From: a virus | Length of the DNA stretch: 47,680 nt | Reading direction: 5' to 3' (one strand) | IMG/VR virus record: IMGVR_UViG_3300032278_000017 | Location: 1-47,680 of that record | Shown: piece by piece, positions 6,339 to 47,121 of the stretch | How positions within the stretch are numbered: position 1 is the first letter of the stretch | Layout: each line of letters opens with the position of its first letter | Made by a program: the position numbers and the translations under genes | The notes under the pieces: model-generated | The model's database searches: none | Seen by the model: the letters and a program-made list of their open reading frames with translations, nothing else | Told to the model about the DNA's origin: nothing

Positions 6339-6749
6339 ATGAGTCTTACAACTCTCGGTAAGATGGAGAACGATCAGACCTTTCTTATGCCTTGGCGTAA
6401 ACCTGGCGCCCGAGCCGGTAAGATTATGCGTATTGGAGCCGGCAGTGTTGATGTCCACATCCCTAGACACGATGGGACCGGATGGGAGCGTACAGCAATT
6501 GCTCTCGAAACAGAGGTCCTCCCTTGTGACAAAGAACTATATCTGCAACAAGGGTTCGGTGAAGATGGCGCGGGTGGGCGAGTCCGTAATAAGAGCACAA
6601 TAAGAAAGCCCGTTGACATCGTTTGGGGTATGTGCAAGGATATGCCAGGAGCTACACGGGATGAGATAGTAGAGGCTTGCGTGGCTCTTGGTGTTAACCC
6701 GAACACAGCCAAGACTCAGTATTACCACTGGAGAAAGAAGCATGGTTGA
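6339..6749 (+). CDS. TARTQ-family small protein 1 (136 aa)
   Basis: First member of a five-copy family in this window. The last ~45 residues (VWGMCKDMPGATRDEIVEACVALGVNPNTAKTQYYHWRKKHG, given here only as motifs VWGMCKD and TAKTQYYHWRKK) match the other members' pattern W-x-x-C/S, then a helix, then TA[RK]TQ-x3-W. This looks like a helix-turn-helix-like unit with a basic C-terminus. The first ~90 residues are specific to this copy and resemble a small beta domain. ATG 6339 is chosen because AAAGGAG lies six bases upstream; the promoter at 6277 precedes it. DNA binding is an inference. Confidence 0.7.
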   Translation: MSLTTLGKMENDQTFLMPWRKPGARAGKIMRIGAGSVDVHIPRHDGTGWERTAIALETEVLPCDKELYLQQGFGEDGAGGRVRNKSTIRKPVDIVWGMCKDMPGATRDEIVEACVALGVNPNTAKTQYYHWRKKHG

Positions 6750-6963
6750 TCGTAAAGCTCTCCTCGAGCAAGCCCAGGATTGTGTCGCTTACCCGACTGG
6801 ACTAGACGGTCGTGACTATGAAAGGGATATAGAAGTAATACAATCGAGGTTGTTAGAAGCTATTGCTATCGGATTCGTTATAGTTGCGGATGTACTAGTT
6901 GAAGAATGTAAGAACGGCGGAGCAATTGAGAATTTAAGATGGCGAAGATCTAAAAGAACATAA
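6742..6963 (+). CDS. Hypothetical protein (73 aa)
   Basis: Not recognised. It starts at ATG 6742, overlapping the previous stop by eight bases, with GGAG at about 12 bases upstream. It is mostly helical with a hydrophobic stretch LLEAIAIGFVIVADVLVEEC and a basic end (RWRRSKRT). The segment is too polar at both ends to call a membrane span with confidence. Co-translation with the TARTQ-family gene is likely. Confidence 0.6.
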   Translation: MVDRKALLEQAQDCVAYPTGLDGRDYERDIEVIQSRLLEAIAIGFVIVADVLVEECKNGGAIENLRWRRSKRT

Positions 6964-6973
6964 ATAGGGCGCC

Positions 6974-7003
6974 TGTCTTCCCGTCCTTAATAGCAGGAAG
7001 ACA
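6974..7003 (+). promoter_or_regulatory. Hairpin in the leader of the 99-aa gene
   Basis: TGTCTTCC (6974-6981) and GGAAGACA (6996-7003) form a perfect 8-bp stem with a 14-base loop. It is followed within 15 bases by AAAAGGAG and the start at 7027. There is no U-tract, so an mRNA-stabilising or regulatory hairpin is more likely than a terminator. Confidence 0.45.
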
Positions 7004-7026
7004 AACTCTCGAAAAGGAGTAGTACC

Positions 7027-7326
7027 ATGGCCGAACAGGCCGATGCAGGGACGGCGACAGTAGAGGCACCTCCAAAGCAGCCGTCACAGAATGGAGTTAC
7101 CCGTCCGAAGACAGGAACAAAGACGGGGCGCGTGTGGGAGATTTCTGACGAGCTCTCAACTTCCGATGGCCCCGCAGCTCGCAAGGACGTGATGGCAGCT
7201 GGTGAGGCAGAAGGACTAAACTCTGCGACCATCGCCACTCAGTACGGTCGGTGGAGGAAGTTCCACGGTCTTGGAAGAGCAGCGGTTGCCGCCGCTTCTG
7301 AAGACACCGCAGAAGTCGAGGAGTAA
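7027..7326 (+). CDS. TARTQ-family small protein 2 (99 aa)
   Basis: Second family member. An Ala/Thr/Pro-rich, probably disordered N-terminus (residues 1-35) leads to the family core VWEISDELS...ARKDVMAAGEAEGLNSATIATQYGRWRKF (core motif here SATIATQYGRWRKF). The ribosome site AAAAGGAG is strong and codon use is GC-rich compared with neighbours, as in the copies near 43-47 kb. It sits between a leader hairpin and a terminator-like hairpin, so it may be an independently expressed, abundant protein. Function unknown; a small nucleic-acid-binding protein is plausible. Confidence 0.7.
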   Translation: MAEQADAGTATVEAPPKQPSQNGVTRPKTGTKTGRVWEISDELSTSDGPAARKDVMAAGEAEGLNSATIATQYGRWRKFHGLGRAAVAAASEDTAEVEE

Positions 7327-7357
7327 CCTGAGCAGGTAATATGTTACTCTGGCAACT

Positions 7358-7393
7358 AGGAGGGTACGGCTCCTAATCGAGTCGTGCCCTCCT
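7358..7393 (+). terminator. Terminator-like hairpin
   Basis: AGGAGGGTACG (7358-7368) pairs with CGTGCCCTCCT (7383-7393), 11 bp with one G-U. It is followed by a weak T-rich stretch TCTTGTCC. It lies between the 99-aa gene and queE, and may only partly terminate because no strong promoter is obvious before queE. Confidence 0.5.
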
Positions 7394-7416
7394 TCTTGTC
7401 CTCACCGGAGAAATTA

Positions 7417-8145
7417 ATGCTAAACGAGCAAGTTCCTTTATCTTCAGATTACCATGATGAAGGATTTATAAAAGTACATTCAATGTTCAACACCATCCAA
7501 GGTGAAGGACCATACGCAGGATATCCAGCTCTTTTCGTACGACTATATGGATGTAATCTTCAGTGTCCTATGTGTGATACTGAATACACGAAAGAATATG
7601 AGCAATACAATCCTATGCACTTAGCGCAGGAAGTAAAATCCCGACTACAACTGATGCACAAGTTGTCGGTGCCCAAGATGAACCCACTTGTGGTGATTAC
7701 AGGGGGTGAACCTCTTCGTCAGAACATTCGTCCTTTCGTAGACTATTTATTAGGCATGGATTTTCTTGTTCAGATCGAAACTAATGGTGTCTTTTATTTG
7801 GATCTTCCATGGGGCCATGATTCTTTAACTGTTGTATGTAGTCCGAAGACAGGGAAGATTCATCCTAAAACAGCAACGCGTGTTCATGCTTATAAGTATG
7901 TGCTATCGAGTGATGGCGTAGCTGAAGATGGCTTACCTATCGCGGCCTTGGGGCATCCTCTTGGTAAGTATGCGCATGTCGCTAGGCCTCCAGATAATTG
8001 GTCTGGACCTGTTTATCTAAATCCTTTAGATGCAGTTAACGATAAAGCTAATAATAAGAACCTTCAAGCCGTTGCGCAATCTGTTACGACGCATGGTAGA
8101 TACATCATGGGTGTACAGATGCACAAACTTATAGGACTACCATGA
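7417..8145 (+). CDS. queE: 7-carboxy-7-deazaguanine synthase (QueE), radical SAM
   Basis: A 242-aa radical SAM enzyme that turns 6-carboxy-tetrahydropterin into 7-carboxy-7-deazaguanine (CDG). Seen: FNTIQGEGPYAG, characteristic of QueE; the cluster-binding CNLQCPMC (C-x3-C-x2-C); and VITGGEPLRQ for SAM binding. ATG 7417 is chosen because GGAG is ten bases upstream, while the in-frame start at 7384 lies in the preceding hairpin. The gene overlaps queC by four bases and starts the deazapurine cassette. Confidence 0.95.
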   Translation: MLNEQVPLSSDYHDEGFIKVHSMFNTIQGEGPYAGYPALFVRLYGCNLQCPMCDTEYTKEYEQYNPMHLAQEVKSRLQLMHKLSVPKMNPLVVITGGEPLRQNIRPFVDYLLGMDFLVQIETNGVFYLDLPWGHDSLTVVCSPKTGKIHPKTATRVHAYKYVLSSDGVAEDGLPIAALGHPLGKYAHVARPPDNWSGPVYLNPLDAVNDKANNKNLQAVAQSVTTHGRYIMGVQMHKLIGLP

Positions 8146-8960
8146 CCAAATGCTTAGTAGTACTCTCTGGAGGACAAGATTCAACTACTTGCCTCTTTTG
8201 GGCAATAAAACGATTTGGCGCAGGTGCTGTTTCTGCTGTAACTTTTGACTACGGACAAAGACATAAGCGCGAAATTCTTTCGGCTCGTATGATAGCAAAC
8301 CGTGTGGGAATTGAACATGAGATTATAACGCTTGGCGATGATATCTTAAAAGGTACATCTCCTTTAGTTAACTCAGAAGAGGAACTGGAAGAGTATGCAG
8401 ATCACCAGTCCTTACCAGGAGGTCTCGAGAAGACCTTTGTACCTATGCGGAATCAATTGTTCCTTACTATTGCGGCTAACAGAGCTTATGTACTTGGATG
8501 CAATACACTTGTGACAGGTGTAAGCAATGAAGATTTTGGTGGGTATCCAGATTGCCGACCAGATTTTATAGAAGCCTTTATAAGGGCTTCCTCAATAGGT
8601 ACCTTTACAGAGGATTCGTTAAGAGTATTGACACCCTTAATGGATTTAGATAAAGAAGCAACTGTTCACCTTGCCGTTAAACTTGGGTTCGGGTGCTACG
8701 AGGCGCTTGGCCTTAGTCACACATCATATGATGGACAATACCCACCGCAAACTAAAGATCATGCTACACTACTCAGGGCCAAAGGGTTCGAACTCGCAGG
8801 TGTGCCTGATCCGTTAATATTACGCGCCTATGAAGAAGCTCGCCTTAACGTGTATCCTGATACCAAAAACTATTTAGGCTCTGCGATTTTCCCACACCGC
8901 CGGATGATTACTGATTTAGTTGCATGGGTCGAAGAATGGGAGAAAACTTATGCCACATGA
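8142..8960 (+). CDS. queC: PreQ0 synthase-type enzyme (QueC), zinc cysteines absent
   Basis: A 272-aa PP-loop ATPase; SGGQDSTTC at residues 9-17 is the nucleotide-binding loop. QueC converts CDG first to the amide ADG and then to the nitrile preQ0. The C-terminal part keeps the family frame (SYDG..., LLRAKGFELAGVPDP), but the four cysteines that bind zinc in characterised QueC are replaced. The usual SCYN position reads TSYDG, and the usual CGxCxxC reads QTKDHAT. Asp/His/Thr could in principle still contact a metal. It is translationally coupled to queE (ATGA overlap) and overlaps queD. Assignment to QueC is firm; whether it performs both steps is uncertain. Confidence 0.9.
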   Translation: MTKCLVVLSGGQDSTTCLFWAIKRFGAGAVSAVTFDYGQRHKREILSARMIANRVGIEHEIITLGDDILKGTSPLVNSEEELEEYADHQSLPGGLEKTFVPMRNQLFLTIAANRAYVLGCNTLVTGVSNEDFGGYPDCRPDFIEAFIRASSIGTFTEDSLRVLTPLMDLDKEATVHLAVKLGFGCYEALGLSHTSYDGQYPPQTKDHATLLRAKGFELAGVPDPLILRAYEEARLNVYPDTKNYLGSAIFPHRRMITDLVAWVEEWEKTYAT

Positions 8961-9420
8961 GGTTACACGGTATCACGATTTTAGTGCGGGGCATAGAGTC
9001 TCCGGTCACGAGAACAAATGTAAAGATCTTCACGGGCATAATTACCGTGTTCATTTTACTTGCATTAGTGCAGAACTTGACGATGTTGGTCGTGTGATCG
9101 ACTTTGGGGTTATCAAAGAATTGCTTTGCGAATGGCTTGAAGAGAACTGGGACCATAAGACGCTACTATGGGACTTAGATCCTATTGCCGGTATCCTACG
9201 TGACGGGTTCAGCTGGTCCACGGCTTTAGAGTCTTTTATGAGCGACAGCATTGTAGAAGTACCCTTCAATCCTACTGCGGAGAACATGGCCCAGTACCTA
9301 GTTGATGTAATTGGACCCGAACTATTGAAGGGAACGGAAGTACAACTCATAAGTGTTACCGTCGACGAAACTCGTAAGTGCTCTGCTACCTATACCGCCT
9401 TCAAAGGACATCAGTCATGA
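8950..9420 (+). CDS. queD: 6-carboxy-5,6,7,8-tetrahydropterin synthase (QueD)
   Basis: A 156-aa member of the PTPS/QueD family, converting dihydroneopterin triphosphate to 6-carboxy-tetrahydropterin. Zinc ligands and the active site are visible: FSAGHRV, then KCKDLHGHNY with the catalytic Cys and two His. The C-terminal VDETRKCSATY supplies the substrate-binding Glu. It starts at ATG 8950 inside the end of queC and its stop overlaps folE (ATGA). It is longer than many QueD proteins (about 120 aa) through an insertion around residues 75-105. Confidence 0.93.
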   Translation: MPHEVTRYHDFSAGHRVSGHENKCKDLHGHNYRVHFTCISAELDDVGRVIDFGVIKELLCEWLEENWDHKTLLWDLDPIAGILRDGFSWSTALESFMSDSIVEVPFNPTAENMAQYLVDVIGPELLKGTEVQLISVTVDETRKCSATYTAFKGHQS

Positions 9421-9968
9421 TTCACCTTTCTACTCTTATTAGAGATATGCTTCACGAAATAGGTGAAGATGTTGAAAGGGAAGGACTTGAGGAAACACCA
9501 CAAAGAGCCGCTCGTGCATGGCTACACTGGACTCAAGGTTATGGGGTGAAGCCTAAAGATGTTCTTAAGACGTTTAAAGATGGTGGTGAGACCTACGATG
9601 AGATGATCTTAGTAAAAGACATCCCGTTCTATAGTCATTGCGAACATCATTTAGCTCCCTTTTTTGGTACGGTAGATATAGGATATATTCCTAACGGTAA
9701 GATCTTAGGGCTATCCAAATTTTCACGTCTTGTTGATATATTTGCCTACCGATTACAGGTTCAGGAACGGTTAACAGAACAAATAGCAAACGCTCTTACA
9801 GAACACTTAGAACCAAAAGGTGTAGCTGTATCTATAAGAGCCCGACATCTATGCATGGAGAGTCGTGGTATACAGAAGCAAGGTAGCGAGACTGTAACTA
9901 ATGAGTTACAAGGGGTATTCAGAACAGATCAATCGGCCCGTTTGGAATTCTTGACAAGCACCCGATGA
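9417..9968 (+). CDS. folE: GTP cyclohydrolase I (FolE)
   Basis: A 183-aa GTP cyclohydrolase I, the first step from GTP to dihydroneopterin triphosphate. The zinc site is intact: YSHCEHHLAPF (Cys and His) and RHLCMESRG (Cys). The helical N-terminus with EETPQRAARAW and the GLSKFSRLVDIFAYRLQVQERLT segment are typical. Family length is about 180-220 aa, so this is full length. Encoding FolE frees the phage from host pterin supply. The 3' end carries the -35 box of the promoter for the next gene. Confidence 0.95.
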   Translation: MIHLSTLIRDMLHEIGEDVEREGLEETPQRAARAWLHWTQGYGVKPKDVLKTFKDGGETYDEMILVKDIPFYSHCEHHLAPFFGTVDIGYIPNGKILGLSKFSRLVDIFAYRLQVQERLTEQIANALTEHLEPKGVAVSIRARHLCMESRGIQKQGSETVTNELQGVFRTDQSARLEFLTSTR

Positions 9969-9980
9969 GGTGGTTATTAT
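9951..9980 (+). promoter_or_regulatory. Promoter for the DpdA-like gene
   Basis: TTGACA (9951-9956), 18-base spacer, TATTAT (9975-9980) then AAGG. The -35 is inside folE. A normal start point about seven bases after the -10 falls at 9987-9988, so the mRNA would begin almost exactly at the ATG at 9989 (leaderless or nearly so). Confidence 0.65.
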
Positions 9981-9988
9981 AAGGTCCA

Positions 9989-10876
9989 ATGAAAATCTAC
10001 CTCGCCGCAGTAATCTACAATGATTTTAGACCAGGAAGTCCTGTCTACAATCGACTTGACGATCGAGAAAAACGGGCAGTTGAAGAGTGTAAACATATCC
10101 TTGACTCGTACCATTATGTTCATAGGCAACGGCTTGTCGATCGTATTCGGAAGACAGGGCGACAAATCTTTTTGGACTCAGGTGCTTTCTCAGCTTATAC
10201 ACAAGACGTAACTATCGACATAGATGAGTATTGTGATTACTGCGAACGTAATTCCGATTTTATTGAAGTAATCTCTGTACTGGATTCTATTGGTAACGCT
10301 GAAGAAACCTACCGAAACCAAAAACATATGGAGTCTAGAGGACTTACTGTCTTGCCATGTTTTCACTATGGTGAGCCTGAAGATGTCCTCGCCTATTACG
10401 CAAGTGCGTACGATCACATTACCATCGGCGGCATGGTACCTGTCTCGACGCCTCAACTAAAAGTGTGGTTAGATCGATTATGGGGCAAATACCTAACGAA
10501 TCAGAATGGTACCGCAAAGCTGAAAGTTCATGGCTTCGGCCTCACGTCCGTACCTCTTATGACAAGGTACCCTTGGTACTCGGTGGACTCATCCTCTTGG
10601 GTGCAATTGGGTGGTATGGGAAATATCTTCTTACCCGATTACGGAACAATAGCAATATCCGAGTTTGCTCCTCAATTAAAAGAGAAGATGAAACACGTTG
10701 ATAATCTACCTGACGAGCATCGTACTATCGTAGTAGGGTATATCGAAGAACTAGGTTTTGACCTTGAGCGCCTTCGTAAAATGCACCTTAGTCGTAAATG
10801 CTTCAATATGGTTACGTATGGGGATTTTCAATCTGATACTAAACCATTTATTGAACCACAACCAGAATTGTTTTGA
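9989..10876 (+). CDS. dpdA: DpdA-like DNA guanine transglycosylase (7-deazaguanine insertion)
   Basis: A 295-aa protein with the TIM-barrel pattern of phage DpdA/TGT-related enzymes, which exchange guanine in DNA for a 7-deazaguanine base. Seen: FLDSGAFSAY with the first catalytic-type Asp (about residue 58), VISVLDSIGNAEETYRNQ with the second Asp, GGMVPVS substrate-loop-like segment, HGFGLTS, and WYSVDSSSW near the end. The tRNA-TGT zinc motif CxCxxC is absent, as expected for short phage DpdA forms. It lies directly after the queE-queC-queD-folE set and overlaps the clamp-like gene. With no queF or amidotransferase gene seen, preQ0 or ADG is the predicted inserted base. Confidence 0.85.
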   Translation: MKIYLAAVIYNDFRPGSPVYNRLDDREKRAVEECKHILDSYHYVHRQRLVDRIRKTGRQIFLDSGAFSAYTQDVTIDIDEYCDYCERNSDFIEVISVLDSIGNAEETYRNQKHMESRGLTVLPCFHYGEPEDVLAYYASAYDHITIGGMVPVSTPQLKVWLDRLWGKYLTNQNGTAKLKVHGFGLTSVPLMTRYPWYSVDSSSWVQLGGMGNIFLPDYGTIAISEFAPQLKEKMKHVDNLPDEHRTIVVGYIEELGFDLERLRKMHLSRKCFNMVTYGDFQSDTKPFIEPQPELF

Positions 10877-11841
10877 TTACAGCATTGAAATTTGTTCGTG
10901 GCGCAGTATCAAGGAAGGACTACCAACCGGCCCTGTCTCACTTTCTAATTAAGGACGGACGTGTCATGGGGTATGACGGAACTATTGCCCTGTCCAGTCC
11001 TATACCTATTGATATTCACGCCACGCCAAAGGCTTTACCGTTTATTAAGGCAATCGAACGTTGTACTGACTCTACAACAGCCTTGAACCTAACAGATACA
11101 GGAAGAATTTCTTTGAAGTCCGGTAAGTTCAGAGCAACTATTGAATGTACAAAAGAAAGTTTAGTTTTAGAATCAATTCAACCAGAAGGTGATCATGTTG
11201 ACCTCAGTTCTACGTTGGTTTCGGCGCTTCGTACTCTTGAGCCTTTTATCGGTGTTGATGCTTCCCGTCCTTGGTCTAGTGGTATTCTTTTGCATAATTT
11301 TTCTGCTTTTGCTACCAATAATATCATTCTGGCCGAGTCTTGGATTGGAGGGGCTCTCCCAAACATTAACCTCCCGGGATCTGCAATCAAAGAGTTGACA
11401 AGAATAGCCGAAGAACCTATAGGTATTCAGTTAAGCGAGACATCTGTTACATTCCATTTCAAAGGCGATAGATGGTTACGCTCTCAACTCTTAAACACAG
11501 AATGGCCTGATATACATTCATTGCTTGAGAAAACATTCGACGCCTCGACTATGTCTCCCTTACCGGATGATTTCTATAACGCTGTCGAAACAATCGCCTA
11601 CGCAGTGGAAGATGACGGTAGAATATATTTTCGCGAGGATTGCATAACCACAGCTTTAGAAGGCGGTATCGGAGCCACTGTGGAGATTCAAGGGTTACCC
11701 TCGTTTGGATCTTACCACCATAAGATGCTTATGCTATTAAAAGATCGTGTCCAACAAATCGATTTTACAAAACATCCTAATCCTTGCCCCTTTGTAGGGG
11801 ATAAGCTTCGAGGTGTATTCTTAGGTATGCGCGATGATTAA
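10873..11841 (+). CDS. Sliding-clamp-like protein (DnaN-related, tentative)
   Basis: A 322-aa protein starting at a TTG that overlaps the dpdA stop (TTGA). The N-terminus (FVRGAVSRKDYQPALSHFLIKDGRVMG-type, short motif SHFLIKDGRV) and the repeated sheet/helix pattern resemble phage beta-clamp homologues that tether DNA polymerase. It lies immediately upstream of the family A polymerase with a TAATG overlap, which supports a polymerase accessory role. No catalytic motif is visible. Clamp assignment rests on overall pattern and context, not on a diagnostic motif. Confidence 0.6.
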   Translation: MITALKFVRGAVSRKDYQPALSHFLIKDGRVMGYDGTIALSSPIPIDIHATPKALPFIKAIERCTDSTTALNLTDTGRISLKSGKFRATIECTKESLVLESIQPEGDHVDLSSTLVSALRTLEPFIGVDASRPWSSGILLHNFSAFATNNIILAESWIGGALPNINLPGSAIKELTRIAEEPIGIQLSETSVTFHFKGDRWLRSQLLNTEWPDIHSLLEKTFDASTMSPLPDDFYNAVETIAYAVEDDGRIYFREDCITTALEGGIGATVEIQGLPSFGSYHHKMLMLLKDRVQQIDFTKHPNPCPFVGDKLRGVFLGMRDD

Positions 11842-13829: not shown

Positions 13830-13833
13830 CGGA

Positions 13834-13858
13834 ACCTAGAATTTTTAGGTATTTTTAT
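13834..13858 (+). terminator. Weak terminator after the polymerase gene
   Basis: ACCTA (13834-13838) and TAGGT (13846-13850) with an AT-rich loop, followed by ATTTTTATA. The stem is only five base pairs, so it would be a weak rightward terminator. Confidence 0.4.
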
Positions 13859-13870
13859 ATAAGTAAATCA

Positions 13871-13976
13871 GCCCTACTCCATCCCAGAAGAAGGCCGATT
13901 AACCCCCTGTTGCTCATGGTACTAATCGTACAGTGTTGCTCCTGGCAGGGCACGGATGACTGGGGTGGGGTAGGGC
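13871..13976. ncRNA. Structured convergent intergenic element (possible ncRNA)
   Basis: The 15-base arms at 13871-13885 (GCCCTACTCCATCCC) and 13962-13976 (GGGGTGGGGTAGGGC) pair along their whole length with two G-U pairs. The 76-base interior contains GTTGCTC twice and a CGATTA/TAATCG inverted pair. No reading frame explains it. It is the most structured part of the 261-base gap between the two convergent operons. It could be a transcript-end structure or a small RNA. Confidence 0.4.
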
Positions 13977-14031
13977 GATTTAAGGCCATTTCCGGCCAGG
14001 GGTAGGTTACCTACCAGCCCACCTGATAAAA

Positions 14032-14077
14032 CCCCTTAAACCGTTGATAAACCTTGCTAAACGGTTGATTAAAGGGG
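14032..14077. terminator. Nested bidirectional hairpin between convergent operons
   Basis: Outer arms CCCCTTAA and TTAAAGGGG and inner arms AACCGTT and AACGGTT form a nested stem that reads much the same on both strands. It sits between the rightward polymerase gene and the leftward late operon, where a two-way terminator is expected. A smaller palindrome GTAGGTTACCTAC lies just before it at about 14002. Confidence 0.5.
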
Positions 14078-14090
14078 TACCCTTAACCGC

Positions 14091-14459: not shown

Positions 14460-14462
14460 TTT

Positions 14463-14585
14463 TTATGCATCCGTTTTAGAAAGACGAGCAATTTTTATAT
14501 CTACTATGCGCAAGCGAGGAGTAGGTATAGAGACTTTATTCACACGACCAAGACTATCTGATATTGTCACACGTTTTTTTGTCAT
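14463..14585 (-). CDS. Small basic protein (40 aa)
   Basis: A 40-aa frame whose ATG overlaps the stop of the endolysin gene (ATGA) and which ends three bases before the next start. It is Lys/Arg-rich at both ends (MTKKRVTISDSLGR..., RLRIVDIKIARLSK). The tight coupling and lack of gaps suggest it is real. Function unknown. Confidence 0.5.
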   Translation of the reverse strand: MTKKRVTISDSLGRVNKVSIPTPRLRIVDIKIARLSKTDA

Positions 14586-40711: not shown

Positions 40712-40998
40712 TAGTTACCTTCCATCTCAAGACGAACCTTGAGCAAGGCTATCTCCCTTTCTAGATCGGATAGGCGATTCTGTAAAGCGGCAATCTGTTC
40801 CGTCAAAAGCCCAGTAGTACCGATGTACTTCTTCTGCCGATCCGCTACATCAGCGATCTCTACCATTGCAGTAGCATCCGCTTGTTCCATCGCGGTAAAC
40901 CGGCCTCCCGCTACCCAAGCAGCTACCAGAATAGAGATAGCAAAGCCGATACTGATTGCCGGAAGTGAGGACGCTTTGGTAATCGTTGTATTACTCAT
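40711..40998 (-). CDS. TM plus coiled-coil protein (95 aa)
   Basis: A membrane segment at about residues 12-32 (LPAISIGFAISILVAAWVAG) followed by a coiled coil (QIAALQNRLSDLEREIALLKVRLEME). Located between terminase genes, with start/stop coupling to the large subunit. It resembles holin- or spanin-like accessory proteins; function is uncertain. Confidence 0.6.
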   Translation of the reverse strand: MSNTTITKASSLPAISIGFAISILVAAWVAGGRFTAMEQADATAMVEIADVADRQKKYIGTTGLLTEQIAALQNRLSDLEREIALLKVRLEMEGN

Positions 40999-41019
40999 AG
41001 CCCCAGAACTCTCTTCCCT

Positions 41020-41256
41020 CTATCGGTTGGATCGAACAAACTCCACCAAAATCTTGATGTCTGAACGCATCTCAGCTACTGAGACTTTTAACTCACCCAT
41101 AGCTTTTGCATTGTCTTCATGCCGTCTACCGAACTCATTCTTGACTTCGTATAGGCTGAACACCAAAAATCGATACAAGGCGTAAATGGCTCCCAATAAC
41201 AGAACTAAAGGGAGCCCGTACTGCTCGATCAAACTTAAAAAGCTATTAGGCTCCAT
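41020..41256 (-). CDS. TM plus helical protein (78 aa)
   Basis: An N-terminal membrane span (YGLPLVLLLGAIYALYRFLV) and a charged helical tail (VAEMRSDIKILVEFVRSNR). Same architecture as the adjacent 95-aa gene, so the two may act together. Holin-like is one option; there is a better holin candidate at 15055. Confidence 0.6.
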   Translation of the reverse strand: MEPNSFLSLIEQYGLPLVLLLGAIYALYRFLVFSLYEVKNEFGRRHEDNAKAMGELKVSVAEMRSDIKILVEFVRSNR

Positions 41257-41270
41257 AGGGCACCATCTTT

Positions 41271-41930
41271 TTAGGGTGTACCAGTAGCGTCAGCCGCTCT
41301 GTCTGAATCCGACTCTATGAAAGCTACAGGGCCTGATGCGGCATCTATCTGACTAAAGTCTTCTGTCTCTTCAAGTTGTTCACTAGTTGGCCCTAATTCG
41401 GCAGATTCACCATTAGGAAGAACAAAGTTGACGTTAACCGACAAAGGTGCTCCGCCAGGTCCGCCTATATCTATACTATCATGGAACATACTATGAACAC
41501 GAGCAAGATCCCTAAGAGCAGCCACAGAATCGTGAAACTCAATCTTAGGGTTCCCATTACTATCAAAACTAAAGCTCTTAATGAATTGACTATTTTCGAT
41601 AACAGCTTCGTTGTCTACTCTTAGAGCTCCTGTACGGGGATCGCATTTGACAATGTCACCCATCTCAGATCGAGCAATCTCAGTAAACCGAAGGAGCACT
41701 TCTGTAGCATCCATAGTGTGGGCATCTAGGCGTTCCTGTATGTATGCGCGCACGTTGGGGTGCCGAAGAAGTTTAGAAGCGTTACCGGAGTTATTTGATT
41801 CGGGGATTACATAGCCGGCGAACTCATAAGCAGCCCGCCCATTGAATCGCTTACCAGTATTTGCGCCAGTAAGCCATTCATCGGCGAACATCTTCTGTTT
41901 TGCACGTAATTTACCGACCGCTGTACTCAT
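41271..41930 (-). CDS. Terminase small subunit
   Basis: A 219-aa protein with the Terminase_2 pattern: KLRAKQKMFADEWLTGANTG, AAYEFAGYVIPESNNSGNASKLLRHPNVRAYIQERL (short motif ASKLLRHPNVRAYI) and VLLRFTEIARSEMGD, ending in an acidic tail. It recognises phage DNA for packaging. ATG 41930 overlaps the upstream stop (TAATG); a longer start at 41957 is less likely. Two small TM genes separate it from the large subunit. Confidence 0.85.
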   Translation of the reverse strand: MSTAVGKLRAKQKMFADEWLTGANTGKRFNGRAAYEFAGYVIPESNNSGNASKLLRHPNVRAYIQERLDAHTMDATEVLLRFTEIARSEMGDIVKCDPRTGALRVDNEAVIENSQFIKSFSFDSNGNPKIEFHDSVAALRDLARVHSMFHDSIDIGGPGGAPLSVNVNFVLPNGESAELGPTSEQLEETEDFSQIDAASGPVAFIESDSDRAADATGTP

Positions 41931-42175
41931 TAGGCGTCTTCTCCCGGTGACATCCATCCTGCTGTGGGATCACAAATAAAGCATTCGCGTCCAGCTTTTA
42001 CTTCAAGCCCACAGCCATCACAGATTCTTGATCCGGCATGGAAATCCCATTGACATAACCAACAGTACCGCTCATTCTCTTCACTTTCGGAAGAACAACG
42101 AGGGCAATGGATAGTTATCTCGAAGGTACGAGGAATATCATATACAAAAATGGTATCCGAAGGTAAAAAAGTCAA
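41930..42175 (-). CDS. Double zinc-ribbon protein
   Basis: Up to 81 aa with four cysteine pairs: CPRC, CWLC, CDGC and CFIC, which can build two zinc ribbons. The only in-frame start I see is TTG 42175, with no good ribosome site, so the start is uncertain. It lies just before the terminase small subunit; a nucleic-acid-binding accessory is plausible. Confidence 0.6.
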   Translation of the reverse strand: MTFLPSDTIFVYDIPRTFEITIHCPRCSSESEENERYCWLCQWDFHAGSRICDGCGLEVKAGRECFICDPTAGWMSPGEDA

Positions 42176-42183
42176 GGGTCATC

Positions 42184-42288
42184 TTATAGCTTACCTTCTC
42201 GCTCTTCCTCATACATTATTGTGGCTATAGCCAATCCACACAAACCTCCAATGAAGCACCCAAGAAGGAGCCCGACGTAAAAAGACAT
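42184..42288 (-). CDS. Tiny membrane protein (34 aa)
   Basis: A 34-aa frame: MSFYVGLLLGCFIGGLCGLA, then IATIMYEEEREGKL. One Gly-rich membrane span and an acidic tail; AGGAG lies nine bases before the ATG. It is part of the chain of closely packed small genes at the start of the late operon. Confidence 0.5.
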   Translation of the reverse strand: MSFYVGLLLGCFIGGLCGLAIATIMYEEEREGKL

Positions 42289-42297
42289 TTACTTCTC

Positions 42298-42615
42298 CTA
42301 ACTAAGCAGTTGTTGGGATTCTTGAATTTCTGTATAAAAGATTATATCGGTGATAAAAGCACTAAGTTCACCAACCATTAAAAACTCATGGGCTTCTGTT
42401 TGCAAGTCAATAAGATCGCCATTTTCATTTATAGCTATTTCAACGGGATAGGAGCTAAGTGCCGAGTTAGGCCAGAGCTTATTAGGTCTGTGCGCCCAGT
42501 CATAAGTCTCTTGGGCGTTAGCCACAATGAAGGTCCATCCATTGTCGGTGCGGGAAATCTGCCCGTAAGGCGTTGTTTGAATATCCATGGGCAGCATACG
42601 TTTAGATAGCGACAT
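42298..42615 (-). CDS. Hypothetical protein (105 aa)
   Basis: Not recognised. ATG 42615 overlaps the previous gene's end by 14 bases and has GGAGG nine bases upstream. The core is beta-like (YGQISRTDNGWTFIVANAQE, VEIAINENGDLIDL). No membrane segment or catalytic motif. Confidence 0.6.
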   Translation of the reverse strand: MSLSKRMLPMDIQTTPYGQISRTDNGWTFIVANAQETYDWAHRPNKLWPNSALSSYPVEIAINENGDLIDLQTEAHEFLMVGELSAFITDIIFYTEIQESQQLLS

Positions 42616-42814
42616 CGTAAGAGGCCTCCGCACTAACAGGCTCCGTTAAAGGTGTCTGCCCAGTCTTGCTGCGTAGCAAGGTAGTGTACGATTCAACCCA
42701 AGCAAGGATTTCGCGGTCGGAGAGGTGGGCTTCAAGGATACAACGATCCAAGGCACAGAACAGAGCGCCCTTGGGTGTAAGCCGGCTGGCCGTATGCTCC
42801 TCAATAATAATCAT
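42602..42814 (-). CDS. Hypothetical protein (70 aa), first late-operon gene
   Basis: Start ATG 42814 with AAGGAG seven bases upstream. A helical protein (RLTPKGALFCALDRCILEAH, SDREILAWVESYTTLLRS) of unknown function. A promoter lies just upstream, so it heads the long leftward late operon. Confidence 0.65.
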   Translation of the reverse strand: MIIIEEHTASRLTPKGALFCALDRCILEAHLSDREILAWVESYTTLLRSKTGQTPLTEPVSAEASYDVAI

Positions 42815-42858
42815 GGTTTGCTCCTTAGAAGCGGAATTGGTCGTTTTTCTTATTTTAT

Positions 42859-42888
42859 AAAATAGTGAATGACTCATGGGTTTGTCAA
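42859..42888 (-). promoter_or_regulatory. Likely late promoter
   Basis: Minus strand TTGACA (42888-42883), 18-base spacer, TATTTT (42864-42859), then an AT-rich stretch and the AAGGAG of the 70-aa gene. No other strong promoter was noticed upstream of the structural genes, so this may drive the operon to 14091. Confidence 0.6.
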
Positions 42889-42969
42889 GTAGATCGTGAG
42901 GGTATGCTTCTAGAAGTGAATTTGAGGATTTTGCCAAAAGCATGTGCTGGTGACAAACCCGCAGTAGGC

Positions 42970-43016
42970 AAAAAAAAGATCCAAAACGGATACCCCCGCC
43001 CCCGATGGTGGGGGCG
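42970..43016 (-). terminator. Intrinsic terminator of the 106-aa gene
   Basis: Minus strand CGCCCCC, loop ACCATC, GGGGGCG (stem 42997-43003/43010-43016), then a smaller ATCC/GGAT hairpin and eight Ts (42977-42970). Confidence 0.75.
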
Positions 43017-43032
43017 AGGGGCCGCGGTGCGG

Positions 43033-43353
43033 TCAGCCGTCGATCACAACGCCACGAGGCGTCGCGCCAACCGATCCCTCGTTGAACCATTTCAGGTAAG
43101 CCTGCACCTGAGTGCGCGCGGTGTAGTAGGCGACGCCCATTTCCTGACCCGCCTTGTTGAGGTCCCGACGCGCTGGAGGCGTGCCGCCATTCTCTTCCGT
43201 CATGTTGAGGCACATCACCCAAGTCCGCGCGATCGGGTAGTCGACCGTCGAAGCGCCCCGACGGTTCTCTGGTGCCACTCGCTCTGGTGCCACGAAGGTG
43301 GCTGTGGCGGTGGCCTCTGGGGCCGTCTTCTCTGTCGGTGTCTTCTTCGCCAT
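43033..43353 (-). CDS. TARTQ-family small protein 3 (106 aa)
   Basis: Third family member, starting MAKK with AGGAG upstream. N-terminal Ala/Thr/Pro region with VAPENRRGASTVD, then the core TWVMCLNMTEE..., GVAYYTARTQVQAYLKWF, ending PRGVVIDG. It is strikingly similar to the 105-aa protein at 44532 (shared RGAST-D, YYTARTQVQAY, PRGVVI), so the two are recent duplicates in opposite orientation. GC-rich compared with most genes here. It has its own promoter and terminator, so it is a single-gene unit. Function unknown. Confidence 0.75.
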   Translation of the reverse strand: MAKKTPTEKTAPEATATATFVAPERVAPENRRGASTVDYPIARTWVMCLNMTEENGGTPPARRDLNKAGQEMGVAYYTARTQVQAYLKWFNEGSVGATPRGVVIDG

Positions 43354-43397
43354 TTTGTTGCTCCTGGTGCGTTGGCCGATTTCATTATCGACACCTA

Positions 43398-43426
43398 ATA
43401 ATCATAAAGGAGGGAGAGTGGGGCAA
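43398..43426 (-). promoter_or_regulatory. Promoter of the 106-aa gene
   Basis: Minus strand TTGCCC (43426-43421), 17-base spacer, GATTAT (43403-43398). Two palindromic operators lie 12-50 bases upstream of the -35. Confidence 0.5.
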
Positions 43427-43437
43427 GGGCAGAATGT

Positions 43438-43457
43438 GAGAAATTGACCAATTTCTC
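43438..43457. promoter_or_regulatory. Palindromic operator-like site
   Basis: GAGAAATT and AATTTCTC flank GACC: a perfect 8-bp inverted repeat just upstream of the promoter of the 106-aa gene. Confidence 0.5.
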
Positions 43458-43461
43458 GAAT

Positions 43462-43477
43462 TGTTGTCTGGACAACA
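43462..43477. promoter_or_regulatory. Operator-like palindrome TGTTGTCT-G/A-GACAACA (copy 1)
   Basis: TGTTGTCTGGACAACA, perfect apart from its centre. A second copy with a perfect centre lies at 44953. Both sit beside TARTQ-family genes. Confidence 0.6.
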
Positions 43478-43539
43478 CTTCGCACATTGGTCTCGATTAG
43501 GGGTTGACAAGCGGGCAAGGAGGACTCCGTAAACTGCCT

Positions 43540-43570
43540 CATAATTATACACTCAAGATGTATAATTATG
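43540..43570. promoter_or_regulatory. Long perfect AT-rich inverted repeat
   Basis: CATAATTATACA (43540-43551) and TGTATAATTATG (43559-43570) are exactly complementary with a 7-base loop. A TTGACA lies at 43504-43509 on the plus strand. No gene follows on that strand nearby. Operator, cruciform or RNA hairpin are possible. Confidence 0.5.
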
Positions 43571-43598
43571 CGCAGGAGCGAGTGTCCCCTTTTTGCTC

Positions 43599-43630
43599 CA
43601 TGTCAGAATGACAGCATGTCAGAATGACAG
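43599..43630. repeat. Tandem 16-bp repeat (CATGTCAGAATGACAG x2)
   Basis: Two exact copies, 43599-43614 and 43615-43630; each contains the inverted repeat TGTCA-GAA-TGACA. GGAGC at 43574 and GCTCC at 43595 precede it. A related tandem pair is at 44995-45030. Confidence 0.7.
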
Positions 43631-43672
43631 TGTCCACTTTTGGCTCCACCTCGAGGATCAGGCGCAGATTCG

Positions 43673-43764
43673 GGATTTTCAGCCGATTTTCATAATCACG
43701 GGATTTTCATCCTCAGGATTTTCTTCCGGGATTTTCTTCTTCGGGATTTTCTTCTGGGATTTTC
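43673..43764 (+). repeat. GATTTTC array A (7 copies)
   Basis: Seven GATTTTC units, six of them as GGATTTTC, all in the same orientation with irregular 4-9 base spacers. They fill the noncoding stretch between the 106-aa gene's upstream region and the terminator of the small TM genes. From 43360 to 43795 no gene was seen. Confidence 0.75.
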
Positions 43765-43795
43765 TAACACGTAAGGATCTAGATCCTCAGCAATA

Positions 43796-43823
43796 CAAAA
43801 AAAATAAGCGCCCCGAAGGGCGC
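43796..43823 (-). terminator. Intrinsic terminator of the small TM genes
   Basis: Minus strand GCGCCC-TTCG-GGGCGC (43823-43808), followed by TTATTTTTTTT. A textbook hairpin with UUCG loop. Confidence 0.85.
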
Positions 43824-43830
43824 CCACCTT

Positions 43831-43965
43831 TTATCTAAGGCGTCGCATCCGGCGCCTCTCCTCATTAACAGCCCTCTCAACCATTGCCTCATAAGATACC
43901 GCGAACCAACAGATCCCAATAAGGAAGAAAGCAACGCCGATTATAAACAATAGTAGAGTTTCCAT
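43831..43965 (-). CDS. Small membrane protein (44 aa)
   Basis: ETLLLFIIGVAFFLIGICWF forms one membrane span, then a charged, Arg-rich helix (ERAVNEERRRMRRLR). The ATG directly follows the stop of the 66-aa TM gene, and a strong terminator follows, so both form one transcript. It could be a lysis or envelope protein; function unknown. Confidence 0.6.
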   Translation of the reverse strand: METLLLFIIGVAFFLIGICWFAVSYEAMVERAVNEERRRMRRLR

Positions 43966-44166
43966 TTAGATTAGATCCCCTCTGTTGACCACAGGTGGGG
44001 GAGGAATTAGACGGCTGTTCTCTCCGCGCTCCTTATCGTACTCCTTAATCTCCCTCCACATCCACCCAATGACGCCTCCTAAGAGTATAGCTAAGATGAG
44101 AGTTACCAGAACATCTACGCCGGTGAAGGCGTTTGTGGTCATTCCTTCGATAAACGCGTTGCACAT
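43966..44166 (-). CDS. Small membrane protein (66 aa)
   Basis: One membrane span in the middle (VDVLVTLILAILLGGVIGWM), then a charged region (REIKEYDKERGENSR) and a proline-rich end (LIPPPPVV). AAAGGAG precedes the ATG. It heads a two-gene unit with the 44-aa TM protein. Pro-rich tails after a TM are seen in some spanins, but no outer partner with a lipobox was found. Confidence 0.65.
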   Translation of the reverse strand: MCNAFIEGMTTNAFTGVDVLVTLILAILLGGVIGWMWREIKEYDKERGENSRLIPPPPVVNRGDLI

Positions 44167-44211
44167 ACGTTGCTCCTTTGGTGTGAACTCGTAGTGTAAT
44201 CCTCACCCTAT

Positions 44212-44240
44212 AATATAGTGCAATCCAACTCTACGGGCAA
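44212..44240 (-). promoter_or_regulatory. Promoter of the small TM genes
   Basis: Minus strand TTGCCC (44240-44235), 17-base spacer, TATATT (44217-44212); the ribosome site AAAGGAG follows about 30 bases later. Confidence 0.65.
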
Positions 44241-44256
44241 GGGATTCTTGAACCAA

Positions 44257-44434
44257 GGATCAAGATCCGGATCTAGCTGAGGTTCATAGTGGCAATCCCG
44301 AACGAAGGATCAAGATCCGGAGCAAGAGCCGGCAATGTCGTATCGCAGCCGGCGGATGAGCACTTGCTGCACGGACTGCATAAATATAGCGCCTTTGCTC
44401 GAATGTGTCAAGGGCTCAAAGGATCAAGATCCGG
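44257..44434. repeat. GGATCAAGATCCGG repeats, cluster D (3 exact copies)
   Basis: Exact copies at 44257-44270, 44307-44320 (50 bases apart) and 44421-44434. Each holds the dyad GGATC-AA-GATCC plus GG. The stretch 44241-44447 has no gene; it lies between divergent units and contains a strong minus-strand promoter. Confidence 0.8.
44383..44411 (-). promoter_or_regulatory. Consensus promoter pointing into noncoding repeats
   Basis: Minus strand TTGACA (44411-44406), exactly 17 bases, TATATT (44388-44383). Downstream are two GGATC dyads and then the second promoter at 44240. It would give the TM genes a 200-base leader or drive a separate small RNA. Confidence 0.65.
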
Positions 44435-44447
44435 TTCTAAAGCGGGG

Positions 44448-44476
44448 TTGACTTATGGAGGATCAGTCGGTAAATT
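44448..44476 (+). promoter_or_regulatory. Promoter of the 105-aa gene
   Basis: TTGACT (44448-44453), 17-base spacer, TAAATT (44471-44476). An AGGAG lies seven bases before the ATG at 44532. A GGATC dyad ends 14 bases upstream of the -35. Confidence 0.6.
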
Positions 44477-44531
44477 TAGTCAGGTTACAGCACGAGGCTC
44501 TAACCACACTAGCAACACTAGGAGCAGCACA

Positions 44532-44849
44532 ATGGCAAAGAAGCAAGCCAAAGACGCCGCACCGCCCGCAGCAACGGCGGTCTTCGTCAAGCCGGAGACA
44601 GTCGCACCGGCGAATCGTAAGGGTGCGTCGACGATCGACAATCCGGTCGGCGAGACCTGGATCACCTGCATCAACGCTACCGCCGCAAACGATGGAGCGA
44701 TGCCGGAGCGCAAGGTGCTTAATCAGGCAGCGATGGATCGGGGAGTGGCGTACTACACGGCGCGGACACAGGTGCAAGCCTACCGCAAGTGGTTCGTCGC
44801 AGGAGCAGACCCAACTCAGGGGCTGCCGCGAGGCGTTGTCATCGGGTAA
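44532..44849 (+). CDS. TARTQ-family small protein 4 (105 aa)
   Basis: Starts MAKKQAKDAAPP at ATG 44532 with AGGAG; a longer frame upstream runs through noncoding repeats and is rejected. After an Ala/Pro-rich stretch comes VAPANRKGASTID, then TWITCINATAAND, the core GVAYYTARTQVQAYRKWF and the end PRGVVIG. It is nearly a twin of the 106-aa protein at 43033 but on the other strand. GC-rich. It has its own promoter and a large terminator hairpin. Probably abundant and nucleic-acid binding; function not known. Confidence 0.75.
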   Translation: MAKKQAKDAAPPAATAVFVKPETVAPANRKGASTIDNPVGETWITCINATAANDGAMPERKVLNQAAMDRGVAYYTARTQVQAYRKWFVAGADPTQGLPRGVVIG

Positions 44850-44863
44850 CGCACTCACCACCC

Positions 44864-44906
44864 GCTGTCAAGGGGGAGCGCTAGCACAGGCTCCCCCTTC
44901 GACAGC
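44864..44906 (+). terminator. Large terminator hairpin
   Basis: GCTGTCAAGGGGGAGC (44864-44879) pairs with GCTCCCCCTTCGACAGC (44890-44906), 16 bp with a one-base bulge. There is no U-tract, so termination may be incomplete or the stem may protect the mRNA end. Confidence 0.65.
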
Positions 44907-44915
44907 AGCCCGAGA

Positions 44916-44929
44916 GGATCAAGATCCGG
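44916..44929. repeat. GGATCAAGATCCGG copy
   Basis: Exact copy of the cluster D dyad, followed by a partial repeat (AGCTAGATCCGGAGCTAGAT). Confidence 0.75.
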
Positions 44930-44952
44930 AGCTAGATCCGGAGCTAGATTCT

Positions 44953-44968
44953 TGTTGTCTAGACAACA
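44953..44968. promoter_or_regulatory. Operator-like palindrome TGTTGTCT-A-GACAACA (copy 2)
   Basis: TGTTGTCTAGACAACA is a perfect 16-bp palindrome; it differs by one base from the site at 43462. Confidence 0.65.
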
Positions 44969-44994
44969 GTCATTTTGACAGGAGCAAAAAGGCT

Positions 44995-45030
44995 CCATGT
45001 CATCATTTTGTTCCATGTCATCATTCTGTT
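44995..45030. repeat. Tandem 18-bp repeat (CCATGTCATCATT... x2)
   Basis: CCATGTCATCATTTTGTT (44995-45012) and CCATGTCATCATTCTGTT (45013-45030), differing at one base. It follows a GGAGC...GCTCC hairpin (44981-44996), as at 43574-43630. Confidence 0.7.
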
Positions 45031-45047
45031 CCAGCAGTGGAGCAAGG

Positions 45048-45144
45048 GGATCAAGAGGATTTTCGTGATTTTCAGTTGATGATAAGGATCATGACGATTT
45101 TCGGGATTTTCAGTTTAAAGGATCAAGAACCGGATCAAGATCCT
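45048..45144 (+). repeat. Mixed GATTTTC/GGATCA array B
   Basis: Four GATTTTC units (from about 45058 to 45110) between GGATCAAG elements near 45048 and two overlapping dyads GGATCAAGAACCGG/GGATCAAGATCC at 45120-45143. The stretch 44907-45156 holds no gene. Confidence 0.7.
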
Positions 45145-45156
45145 CTTCTGGCTACA

Positions 45157-45181
45157 GAAAAGGCGCCCCGTAAAGGACGCC
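45157..45181 (-). terminator. Terminator of the leftward small-gene operon
   Basis: Minus strand GGCGTCC (45181-45175), loop, GGGGCGCC (45169-45162), followed by TTTTCTG. 7 bp with one G-U. Confidence 0.65.
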
Positions 45182-45188
45182 AGTTCTG

Positions 45189-45497
45189 CTACTCGTAGTG
45201 CGGTGTGTGCTCTGGATACGAGTAAGGAATATCGTTCCAGACCTCGGCCTGATAGTGACCCCCGCTGTAGTTAACGGATTGTATGGGGAGCCGCCCGTAA
45301 GGAATCTTACGTTGCTCATGCCGCCTGAAGGCCAGAGTTCGATTAAAGCGCCGGCTGTAATCGTACGCCTTCTCCTCATCCGAATCTGGAAAGGCCTTCA
45401 CGACCTTCATCAGGTCGCCGGTGGTGAACCACCAGCCTCCTTCCTCGGGTCCGCCGTATACTCTATCGAGTTCGAACACCGCCACGAAGATCACCAT
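45189..45497 (-). CDS. Hypothetical protein (102 aa)
   Basis: AGGAGGGC before the ATG; overlaps the 86-aa gene by seven bases. Tyr- and Arg-rich with MVIFVAVFELDRVYGG at the start and YSYPEHTPHYE at the end. Last gene of a four-gene leftward operon that is closed by a terminator. Not recognised. Confidence 0.65.
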   Translation of the reverse strand: MVIFVAVFELDRVYGGPEEGGWWFTTGDLMKVVKAFPDSDEEKAYDYSRRFNRTLAFRRHEQRKIPYGRLPIQSVNYSGGHYQAEVWNDIPYSYPEHTPHYE

Positions 45498-45751
45498 GCC
45501 CTCCTAGACTTGAGGATCTGGTTGAGCTCCTTCTTAACTCTCCTGGCTACCTCACCCCTCCACGTCGTCGCGTTACTCAAAAAGTAAGCAACCATTTGCT
45601 CACCAGTATCGGCGAAGAAGTTATCATCGATGCTATAGAGCGAGTCCATGGCATCCAGATAAGGGACTGCGGCGTAGTTTGGCTTTTTCCAGTCGCTCCT
45701 AATTTCCGAAGCGATAACGTGAATAGGCCGTTGCTCCTCAACCTGCGTCAT
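45491..45751 (-). CDS. Conserved phage small protein (86 aa)
   Basis: PIHVIASEIRSDWKKPNYAA, VPYLDAMDSLYSIDD, and TWRGEVARRVKKELNQIL are patterns I recognise from small proteins of unknown function common in phages of actinobacteria and other hosts. Probably an intracellular host-interaction protein. The ATG overlaps the upstream stop by four bases. Confidence 0.7.
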   Translation of the reverse strand: MTQVEEQRPIHVIASEIRSDWKKPNYAAVPYLDAMDSLYSIDDNFFADTGEQMVAYFLSNATTWRGEVARRVKKELNQILKSRRAW

Positions 45752-46011
45752 AAGTACCTCCTGTCCTCTGAGTTAAAAGGTGTGCTCCATTCGAGCCCCA
45801 GTACGTGCGGGAATAAGGAGCGTTCGAAGTCCGTGCCTCGCTCACAAACATGGACACGTCCGCTGCTGTTATAATGACGTGGGGCAGCGCCTCCCACGAC
45901 GACATACTCCGTCTGCTCGGAGGTAATGTGATCTCCTCGCTCCAGAACTATGCCGGTTCCCTTGCGGACAAGAATTAGCTTCCTGCCCGAGTAGTCGATA
46001 CTTTCAATCAT
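45748..46011 (-). CDS. Hypothetical protein (87 aa)
   Basis: ATG 46011 overlaps the previous stop (ATGA), with AAGGA nine bases upstream. Beta-rich (YSGRKLILVRKGTGIVLERG, TEYVVVGGAAPRHYNSSGRV). A small beta barrel is possible. Function unknown. Confidence 0.65.
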   Translation of the reverse strand: MIESIDYSGRKLILVRKGTGIVLERGDHITSEQTEYVVVGGAAPRHYNSSGRVHVCERGTDFERSLFPHVLGLEWSTPFNSEDRRYL

Positions 46012-46280
46012 GATGGGTGTCCTTGCCTCGCATTCTCGAGGGCGACGCACTCTGTGATGTTCTTCTGGGCGTCTTCGGACAGGTGCTTCCACACTTGCTC
46101 TGTACAACGAATCTGAGCGTAATCGCTAGGGGTCATCCCCCATTCGATCTGCTCTTGGGTCACTGTCGGCAGCTTATCCAGCACGCCGTACAGCTCCCGA
46201 TGCGTATCCATGGTGATTCCATCCATGGTCTCAGCTACCTGATCGGGAGTCATGAACTGCATTTCGAACGGTGCGTCCAT
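46008..46280 (-). CDS. Hypothetical protein (90 aa), first of the leftward operon
   Basis: ATG 46280 has AGGAG eight bases upstream; the longer in-frame ATG at 46316 overlaps the promoter -10 and has no ribosome site. Helical, acidic (PDQVAETMDGITMDTHREL, SEDAQKNITECVALENA). A TATATT-like -10 is at 46327-46322 but the -35 is weak. Function unknown. Confidence 0.65.
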   Translation of the reverse strand: MDAPFEMQFMTPDQVAETMDGITMDTHRELYGVLDKLPTVTQEQIEWGMTPSDYAQIRCTEQVWKHLSEDAQKNITECVALENARQGHPS

Positions 46281-46394
46281 CGTGCTACTCCTGTTGAGTG
46301 GGCTGGCTTCTTCCATGTATTAATATAACGCAATCACTCAACGGTCACCAGACCGATCAGAAAATTAGCATCTTCATGAAAAGATCGTAAGTAG

Positions 46395-46572
46395 GGATCA
46401 AGAACCGGCGCTTGATGAGGATCAAGATGCGATTCTAGATCCCCATACCTTTAGGATCAAGATGCGGATCTAGAAGCGGATCAAGAACCGCCGTTAGATC
46501 CTACCGCAATTTTCGATTTTCAGGAGCATAATATCACACGTGATTTTCAGGATCAAGATCATGCGCGTGATT
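46395..46572. repeat. Mixed GGATCAAGA/GATTTTC array C
   Basis: GGATCAAGAACCGG (46395), GGATCAAGATGCGA (46419), GGATCAAGATGCGG (46454), GGATCAAGAACCGC (46478) and GGATCAAGATCATG (46550), with CTAGATCC fragments between, and three GATTTTC units (about 46515-46572). The stretch 46328-46583 contains no gene; this is upstream of the four-gene leftward operon. Confidence 0.75.
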
Positions 46573-46583
46573 TTCAGCTAAGA

Positions 46584-46615
46584 CAAAAAAAGAGGCCCCA
46601 TCCGAAGATGGAGCC
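46584..46615 (-). terminator. Intrinsic terminator of the 157-aa gene
   Basis: Minus strand GGCTCCATC-TTCG-GATGGGGCC (46615-46594), 9 bp with a UUCG loop, followed by TCTTTTTTT. Confidence 0.85.
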
Positions 46616-46647
46616 CCCGAGAACGGCATTCAAGCCCTTCGCCGGCA

Positions 46648-47121
46648 TCAGGCGTCGGGACCGTCCTCTCCCTCTTCAGGGTGGAGAGCCTTGGGCAGCT
46701 CATCCAGGCTGAGATCCGACAAACGACGAGTACCTTTATCCGTCGCGGTGAACCAAGCCTGGAACTGAGTCCGCGCTGTGTAATACGCGATCCCTTCCTC
46801 CTGAGCCAGGGCTACAACCTCGCTCCTCTTAGCCCTGTCCTCTGGAGCGGCTCCAGCGACCACAGTGTCGCAGAGCTCCCATACTGCGGCAACAGGGGAC
46901 TCGGCCGTGGACTTTCCACGAAGAGCTGGGTCAGGGAGATTGGCTCCGGCCACGATGGCCTCATAGATCTCGGTTTTCGTCCCGCCTGCATCAATCTCGA
47001 TCTCCATCGCCGACGCTTTCTCAACCAATGCTGCTTTGGTGTGCGCCCGGATGAAATCATCAGATGGGATGGTCCGTAATTGCTTACGGATCTCGACGGG
47101 TGTTGCTACTGCATCGCTCAT
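46648..47121 (-). CDS. TARTQ-family small protein 5 with SAP/HeH-like domain (157 aa)
   Basis: Fifth family member. ATG 47121 with AAGGAG upstream. Residues ~27-62 (TKAALVEKASAMEIEIDAGG, then TKTEIYEAIV) look like a HeH/SAP/LEM-type helix-extended-helix motif, a known DNA- or RNA-binding module. The family core follows (AVWELCDTVVAG, GIAYYTARTQFQAWF), then an acidic tail (LHPEEGEDGPDA). The extra motif is the best clue that this family binds nucleic acid. Own promoter (47200) and terminator; GC-rich. Confidence 0.75.
   Translation of the reverse strand: MSDAVATPVEIRKQLRTIPSDDFIRAHTKAALVEKASAMEIEIDAGGTKTEIYEAIVAGANLPDPALRGKSTAESPVAAVWELCDTVVAGAAPEDRAKRSEVVALAQEEGIAYYTARTQFQAWFTATDKGTRRLSDLSLDELPKALHPEEGEDGPDA

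Follow-up and report, generated by a model that had tools for sequence, protein, structure and literature searches.

It is well known that some phages carry 7-deazaguanine in place of guanine in their DNA. Directly upstream of queE, two of them have a gene with an activator name, CAjan gp46 ('transcriptional activator FtrA domain-containing protein') and Iggy QEA09772 ('putative transcriptional activator'). Both products contain the ~50-residue TARTQ core described here, and the activator name is annotation only; in Pfam and NCBIfam scans that covered P1-P5, the five members in the window, nothing was matched, whether an AraC/FtrA or other activator family or any other. The profiles of PHROG 18634, 11298, 7864, 21588, 22313 and 17772 pick up the core in P2 and its relatives, with E-values from 2.7e-22 (PHROG 18634 with P2) to 7.6e-5; all six are labelled as unknown function and have no links among them in the database. 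PHROG matches are weak for P1, P4 and P5 and absent for P3. The family is therefore already in the databases, in pieces, and a search of Pfam, NCBIfam and PDB sequences for a well-annotated family covering all five proteins found none.

The window is the whole stretch of viral DNA that was analysed (47,680 nt, IMG/VR record IMGVR_UViG_3300032278_000017). The five open reading frames that the initial annotation had grouped together are all present in it, and their positions are listed in Table 1 with those of the neighbouring genes and repeats.

Table 1. Positions of the TARTQ genes, the 7-deazaguanine cassette and the repeat-filled gaps in the window.
Feature	Coordinates	Strand	Description
ResIII-type helicase	4320..6083	+	left border of cassette; tblastn to phage helicases, synteny
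P1	6339..6749	+	beta-barrel (SH3/KOW-like) N-domain and TAKTQ core (~6591-6746); first TARTQ gene past the helicase
P2	7027..7326	+	C-type TARTQ protein, disordered tails, core ~7102-7272; queE directly downstream
queE, queC, queD, folE	7384..9968	+	preQ0 synthesis; genes ordered as in the annotations of Me-ZS1, Iggy and CAjan
DpdA	9989..10876	+	7-deazaguanine DNA transglycosylase; ~40-50% identity over 94-100% to annotated phage DpdA/TGT
P3	43033..43353	-	Ala/Pro-rich N-terminus and YYTARTQ core (~43078-43254)
GATTTTC (7 copies) and GGATCTAGATCC	43646..43790	+	gap upstream of P3
GGATCAAGATCC repeats	44257..44442	+	upstream of P4
P4	44532..44849	+	near paralogue of P3; core ~44625-44801
GGATCAAGATCC and GATTTTC repeats	44916..45153	+	downstream of P4
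GGATCAAGA-type and GATTTTCAG repeats	46395..46577	+	past P5 terminator
P5	46648..47121	-	four-helix SAP/HeH-like N-domain and YYTARTQ core (~46738-46914)

The common C-terminal core was recovered in every member when that member was omitted and a profile of the other four cores was run against the six-frame ORFs of the window, with E-values of 1e-7 (P1), 1.8e-8 (P2), 2.8e-19 (P3), 2.5e-15 (P4) and 3.8e-14 (P5). The next real ORF had an E-value of at least 0.35 and the best among 20 shuffled sets was 3.7e-4; together, these comparisons rule out a chance likeness. The core approximately follows the pattern P-x3-VW-x-IAD-...-RKDV-x3-C-x3-GI-x3-TA-x-TQY-x2-W-x-K. By core identity, P3 and P4 are near paralogues (33/57), followed by P5 (26/51 with P4, 25/52 with P3), and P1 and P2 are distant, the other pairs sharing 12-19 of ~50 residues. 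The N-termini do differ, being a five-strand beta barrel in P1, Ala/Pro-rich in P2-P4 and four helices in P5. Two further properties had been ascribed to several of the genes. GC-richness applies to P2-P5 (0.59-0.64, compared with 0.464; P1, 0.51). As to separate promoters and terminators, a terminator-like hairpin follows immediately after P3 (43020-42993) and after P5 (46618-46591), and a promoter match (11/12) lies 33 bp ahead of P1.

AlphaFold2 models of P1 and P5 give the same three-helix core, rather than unrelated folds. In the P1 model (mean pLDDT 92), a five-strand barrel (pLDDT >90) is followed by helices at residues 91-101, 107-116 and 121-135, with a pLDDT of about 97 in the core; in the P5 model, the core follows four N-terminal helices. 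Two of these (29-38 and 49-59), separated by a loop, have a pLDDT of about 66-82, and the matches of this N-domain to PHROG profiles are weak. Models of other members, predicted independently, agree with the core to 0.7-0.8 A when 50-59 residues are superposed. Both models have the layout of a helix-turn-helix: three helices, a short turn linking helix 2 to helix 3, and a conserved helix 3. Across 90 sequences, conservation of the core is highest in this recognition helix; in P5 numbering, T115 and Q119, at its start, are kept in 90/90, T118 and R99 in 86/90, and W123 in 85/90. The contigs were fetched by the pattern T[AI][RKA]TQ, an ascertainment that bears on these counts, and the two invariant residues persist in paralogues outside it (for example TASTQ, TVQVQ and TAAVQ). 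Overall, 109 cores were gathered; besides the window, the sources were 44 viral contigs and two reference phages.

The TARTQ core is thus confidently predicted to be a trihelical helix-turn-helix. Because it has this layout, with the recognition helix as its most conserved part, we infer that it binds double-stranded DNA. The nucleic-acid binding proposed at the outset is supported by the predicted fold, the superposition on relatives' models and the genomic company of the core (a replication/modification cassette and a SprT-like protease fusion), but solved structures gave no significant match to the core (best TnsB, E-value 0.018). Profiles of HTH_23 and HTH_28 match the core weakly (E-values 0.02-0.1), and a fold search with P5 returned nothing usable.

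P1 and P2 occupy a conserved place, with the helicase on one side and, on the other, the 7-deazaguanine DNA cassette queE-queC-queD-folE-dpdA. The common layout in relatives is two or three tandem members from the ResIII helicase to queE, the last of them (C-type, P2-like) commonly directly upstream of queE; P1 orthologues occupy the same place in L006, L007 and L009-L012. The family had been described as scattered, which is wrong for P1 and P2. Nor are five paralogues the large investment they had been taken for: one to five copies per record are normal and most relatives have two to four, so that five is a high but normal number. Many C-type members have Ala/Lys-rich tails. In one relative, a gene in tandem with P1 and P2 orthologues (L012:5185-5886) encodes a SprT-like metalloprotease domain (PF10263, E-value 1.7e-8) fused to a TARTQ core; the SprT-like family is tied to DNA-protein crosslinks.

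The core was found in nearly every examined phage that uses the same type of DpdA for 7-deazaguanine DNA. In particular, 23 phage records were tested, and it was present in 18/18 with the window's DpdA type and in 0/5 with other types. Phages picked from a list of DpdA proteins (9g, HD01, MiCath, Yong-L2-223 and PSTCR7) all had the core, and 7/7 phages picked by the core had DpdA. Of 40 records with the core, 34 also have the window's DpdA type; five of the other six contigs look cut off near the locus, and the sixth (G016, 99 kb) is a real exception. Moreover, tblastn with the P2 core matched 151 phage records, compared with 155 for DpdA at 80% coverage, and the totals are near-equal per host genus. 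In phages Kmi2C, SCUT-S3 and Kharn, the helicase, clamp and polymerase genes keep this order, but no part of the cassette lies among them, and both the core and DpdA are absent; this speaks for a core that is carried along with the cassette and not with the replication block. The core of the C-type member beside queE is 43-77% identical in most listed relatives and 34-37% in Nonagvirus and Providencia phages; for DpdA, the identity is about 40-50%. A Queuovirinae-type DpdA/TARTQ block was also seen at ~278-285 kb of MT135025.1 (Vibrio phage V07), a 349-kb entry under the label Straboviridae that is flagged as unverified and is probably a chimeric assembly.

Further, there are carriers of the core in which DpdA of the window's type was not found. 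In Salmonella phage birk (Rosemountvirus), a single, distant C-type member follows the helicase directly (L075:7915-8442); its relatives occur in 63 records, nearly all of them Rosemountvirus-like, and no such DpdA was found in the Rosemountvirus genome tested. The 99-kb G016 contig likewise gave no such DpdA, and its 724-aa protein (L024:8462-10633), which has no Pfam matches, carries the core towards the C-terminus, at residues 535-581. A scan of bacterial genomes with the P2 core returned no relative; with the L093 protein, it returned five loci in bacterial assemblies. Integrative elements in assemblies named Vulcaniibacterium, Thiobacillus, Betaproteobacteria SCN1 and Hoeflea (L097, L098, L099 and L100) have two tandem TARTQ genes each, one element also having a DNA methylase, and no DpdA was found within the fetched 7-20 kb. 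The profiled element L099 encodes a tyrosine integrase, AlpA and a primase/helicase-like protein (AAA_25/DUF3987), the gene for the last being present in L100 as well; these small elements look like phage satellites. One L100 protein shares 94% identity across 168 residues with a member from the lytic Stenotrophomonas phage L071, which points to recent transfer. Taken as a test of the core as a cassette gene, the counts above (18/18, 34/40 contigs, and three backbone-only phages without either) stand beside a core without this DpdA in Rosemountvirus, G016 and the elements. These three break a strict dependence on DpdA, and the core must have a use where DpdA of the window's type is not nearby.

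P3-P5 have a different setting. The initial annotation had noted repeats around three members, and indeed GGATCnAGATCC-type and GATTTTC units, clustered on the plus strand, fill the four gaps around P3, P4 and P5; the window has 7 copies of GGATCnAGATCC against 0.0 expected and 32 of GATTTTC against 8.7 expected. GATTTTC is strongly biased in strand, with 30/32 copies on the plus strand, even within minus-strand genes. Relatives of P3-P5 were found only in G002, G003, G005 and G040/L095: P3/P4-type members in G003, G005 and G040, a P4 orthologue at L095:8584-9054, and P5 orthologues with the N-domain in G002, G003, G005 and G040. In the close relative L095, the same repeats flank its three members (the P4 and P5 orthologues and a third), and G005 and G002 contain clusters of GATTT(T)TCA; G004, VpKK5 and Me-ZS1 gave neither a P3-P5-type member nor a repeat excess. 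For P3-P5, the suggestion that the proteins read these repeats fits a co-distribution that is only correlative and is confounded by relatedness, since the repeat-bearing phages are each other's nearest relatives; it does not apply to P1 and P2, which have no such repeats beside them. P3-P5 are a lineage-specific, recent expansion. Two near-perfect palindromes, TTGTTGTC(T)(G/A)GACAACA, at 43461-43477 (upstream of P3) and 44952-44968 (downstream of P4), are possible operators. The word GAT(T/C)AGGGGTTGACAA, common to 43495-43510 (+) and 47194-47209 (-), the second being upstream of P5, is a -35-like box.

We give about an even chance to the TARTQ proteins being DNA-binding regulators adapted to the modified genome. 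The five belong to one phage protein family with the predicted trihelical core in common; this core would bind double-stranded DNA, and the variable N-terminal parts would tune it or add function. The pair ahead of the queE-dpdA cassette, P1 and P2, would most likely regulate phage gene expression on a 7-deazaguanine genome; P3-P5, in transcription units of their own, would probably work on the surrounding gaps, which are filled with repeats. A search upstream of 97 family genes found no common operator, just -35-like words and a coding-sequence word; the latter, AAGTGGAA, was discarded as a coding-sequence artefact, probably 'KWK' codons of the upstream gene. The peak of conservation in the recognition helix would also be unexpected if the paralogues read different operators. 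Both the co-occurrence and the invariant helix are better explained if the core is an accessory of DNA modification that recognises DNA with 7-deazaguanine or guides DpdA to the motifs it modifies. Its near-perfect match to one DpdA type and absence from five phages of other types, the joint absence of core and cassette from three phages with the same backbone, and a C-type member beside queE about as conserved as DpdA or more all fit such an accessory, which must nevertheless account for Rosemountvirus, G016 and the integrative elements; on the whole, we consider it a tentative reading and somewhat unlikely. According to their papers' titles, CAjan has two modification motifs and Iggy one, and each phage has two family members, so that the idea of one protein per motif is unsupported and was dropped. 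A version in which the proteins are readers or targeting subunits, their invariant recognition helix sensing the modified base or bringing DpdA to its motifs, and in which the integrative elements' copy gets their own DNA treated like that of a lytic phage is, we think, improbable.

Alternatively, the proteins could be nucleoid- or replication-associated architectural components of the replication module, with little sequence specificity. Their location within the exonuclease-helicase-clamp-polymerase block, the Ala/Lys-rich tails of many C-type members and the fusion to a SprT-like metalloprotease point this way, but the same replication block without the cassette lacks the core, and such a role seems doubtful at best. 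It is more doubtful still, and the least probable of the readings, that the ligand of the core is not DNA but RNA or another protein, such as RNA polymerase: trihelical domains can bind either, and the P1 barrel resembles (by weak matches) the KOW/SH3-like type common in RNA-binding and transcription factors, but the conserved T..TQ that starts helix 3 suits a DNA recognition helix and no RNA-binding family was matched. Regulation of gene expression on the modified genome is the reading we favour.

Compared with known systems, the homing-endonuclease-associated HNH_repeat (PF18780) has a similar T...(F/Y)G.W ending, and it matches 4/89 members weakly (best E-value 0.038); homology was rejected, as E-values of 1 or less occurred in 1/24 phage records versus 11/14 control genomes. 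Mycobacterium and Rhodococcus phages likewise have a neighbour of DNA-binding type beside DpdA, a ParB-like/HTH gene, but their DpdA is of another type and the TARTQ core was not found in those tested. On the evidence of their sequences, the TARTQ proteins form one family that joins several separate PHROGs of unknown function and hypothetical genes. A family that tracks one type of DpdA, with a member usually directly before queE, provides a concrete, deletable candidate in phages that are in culture, CAjan, 9g and Iggy among them, and one that bears on the choice of sites by DpdA and on transcription of DNA with altered bases.
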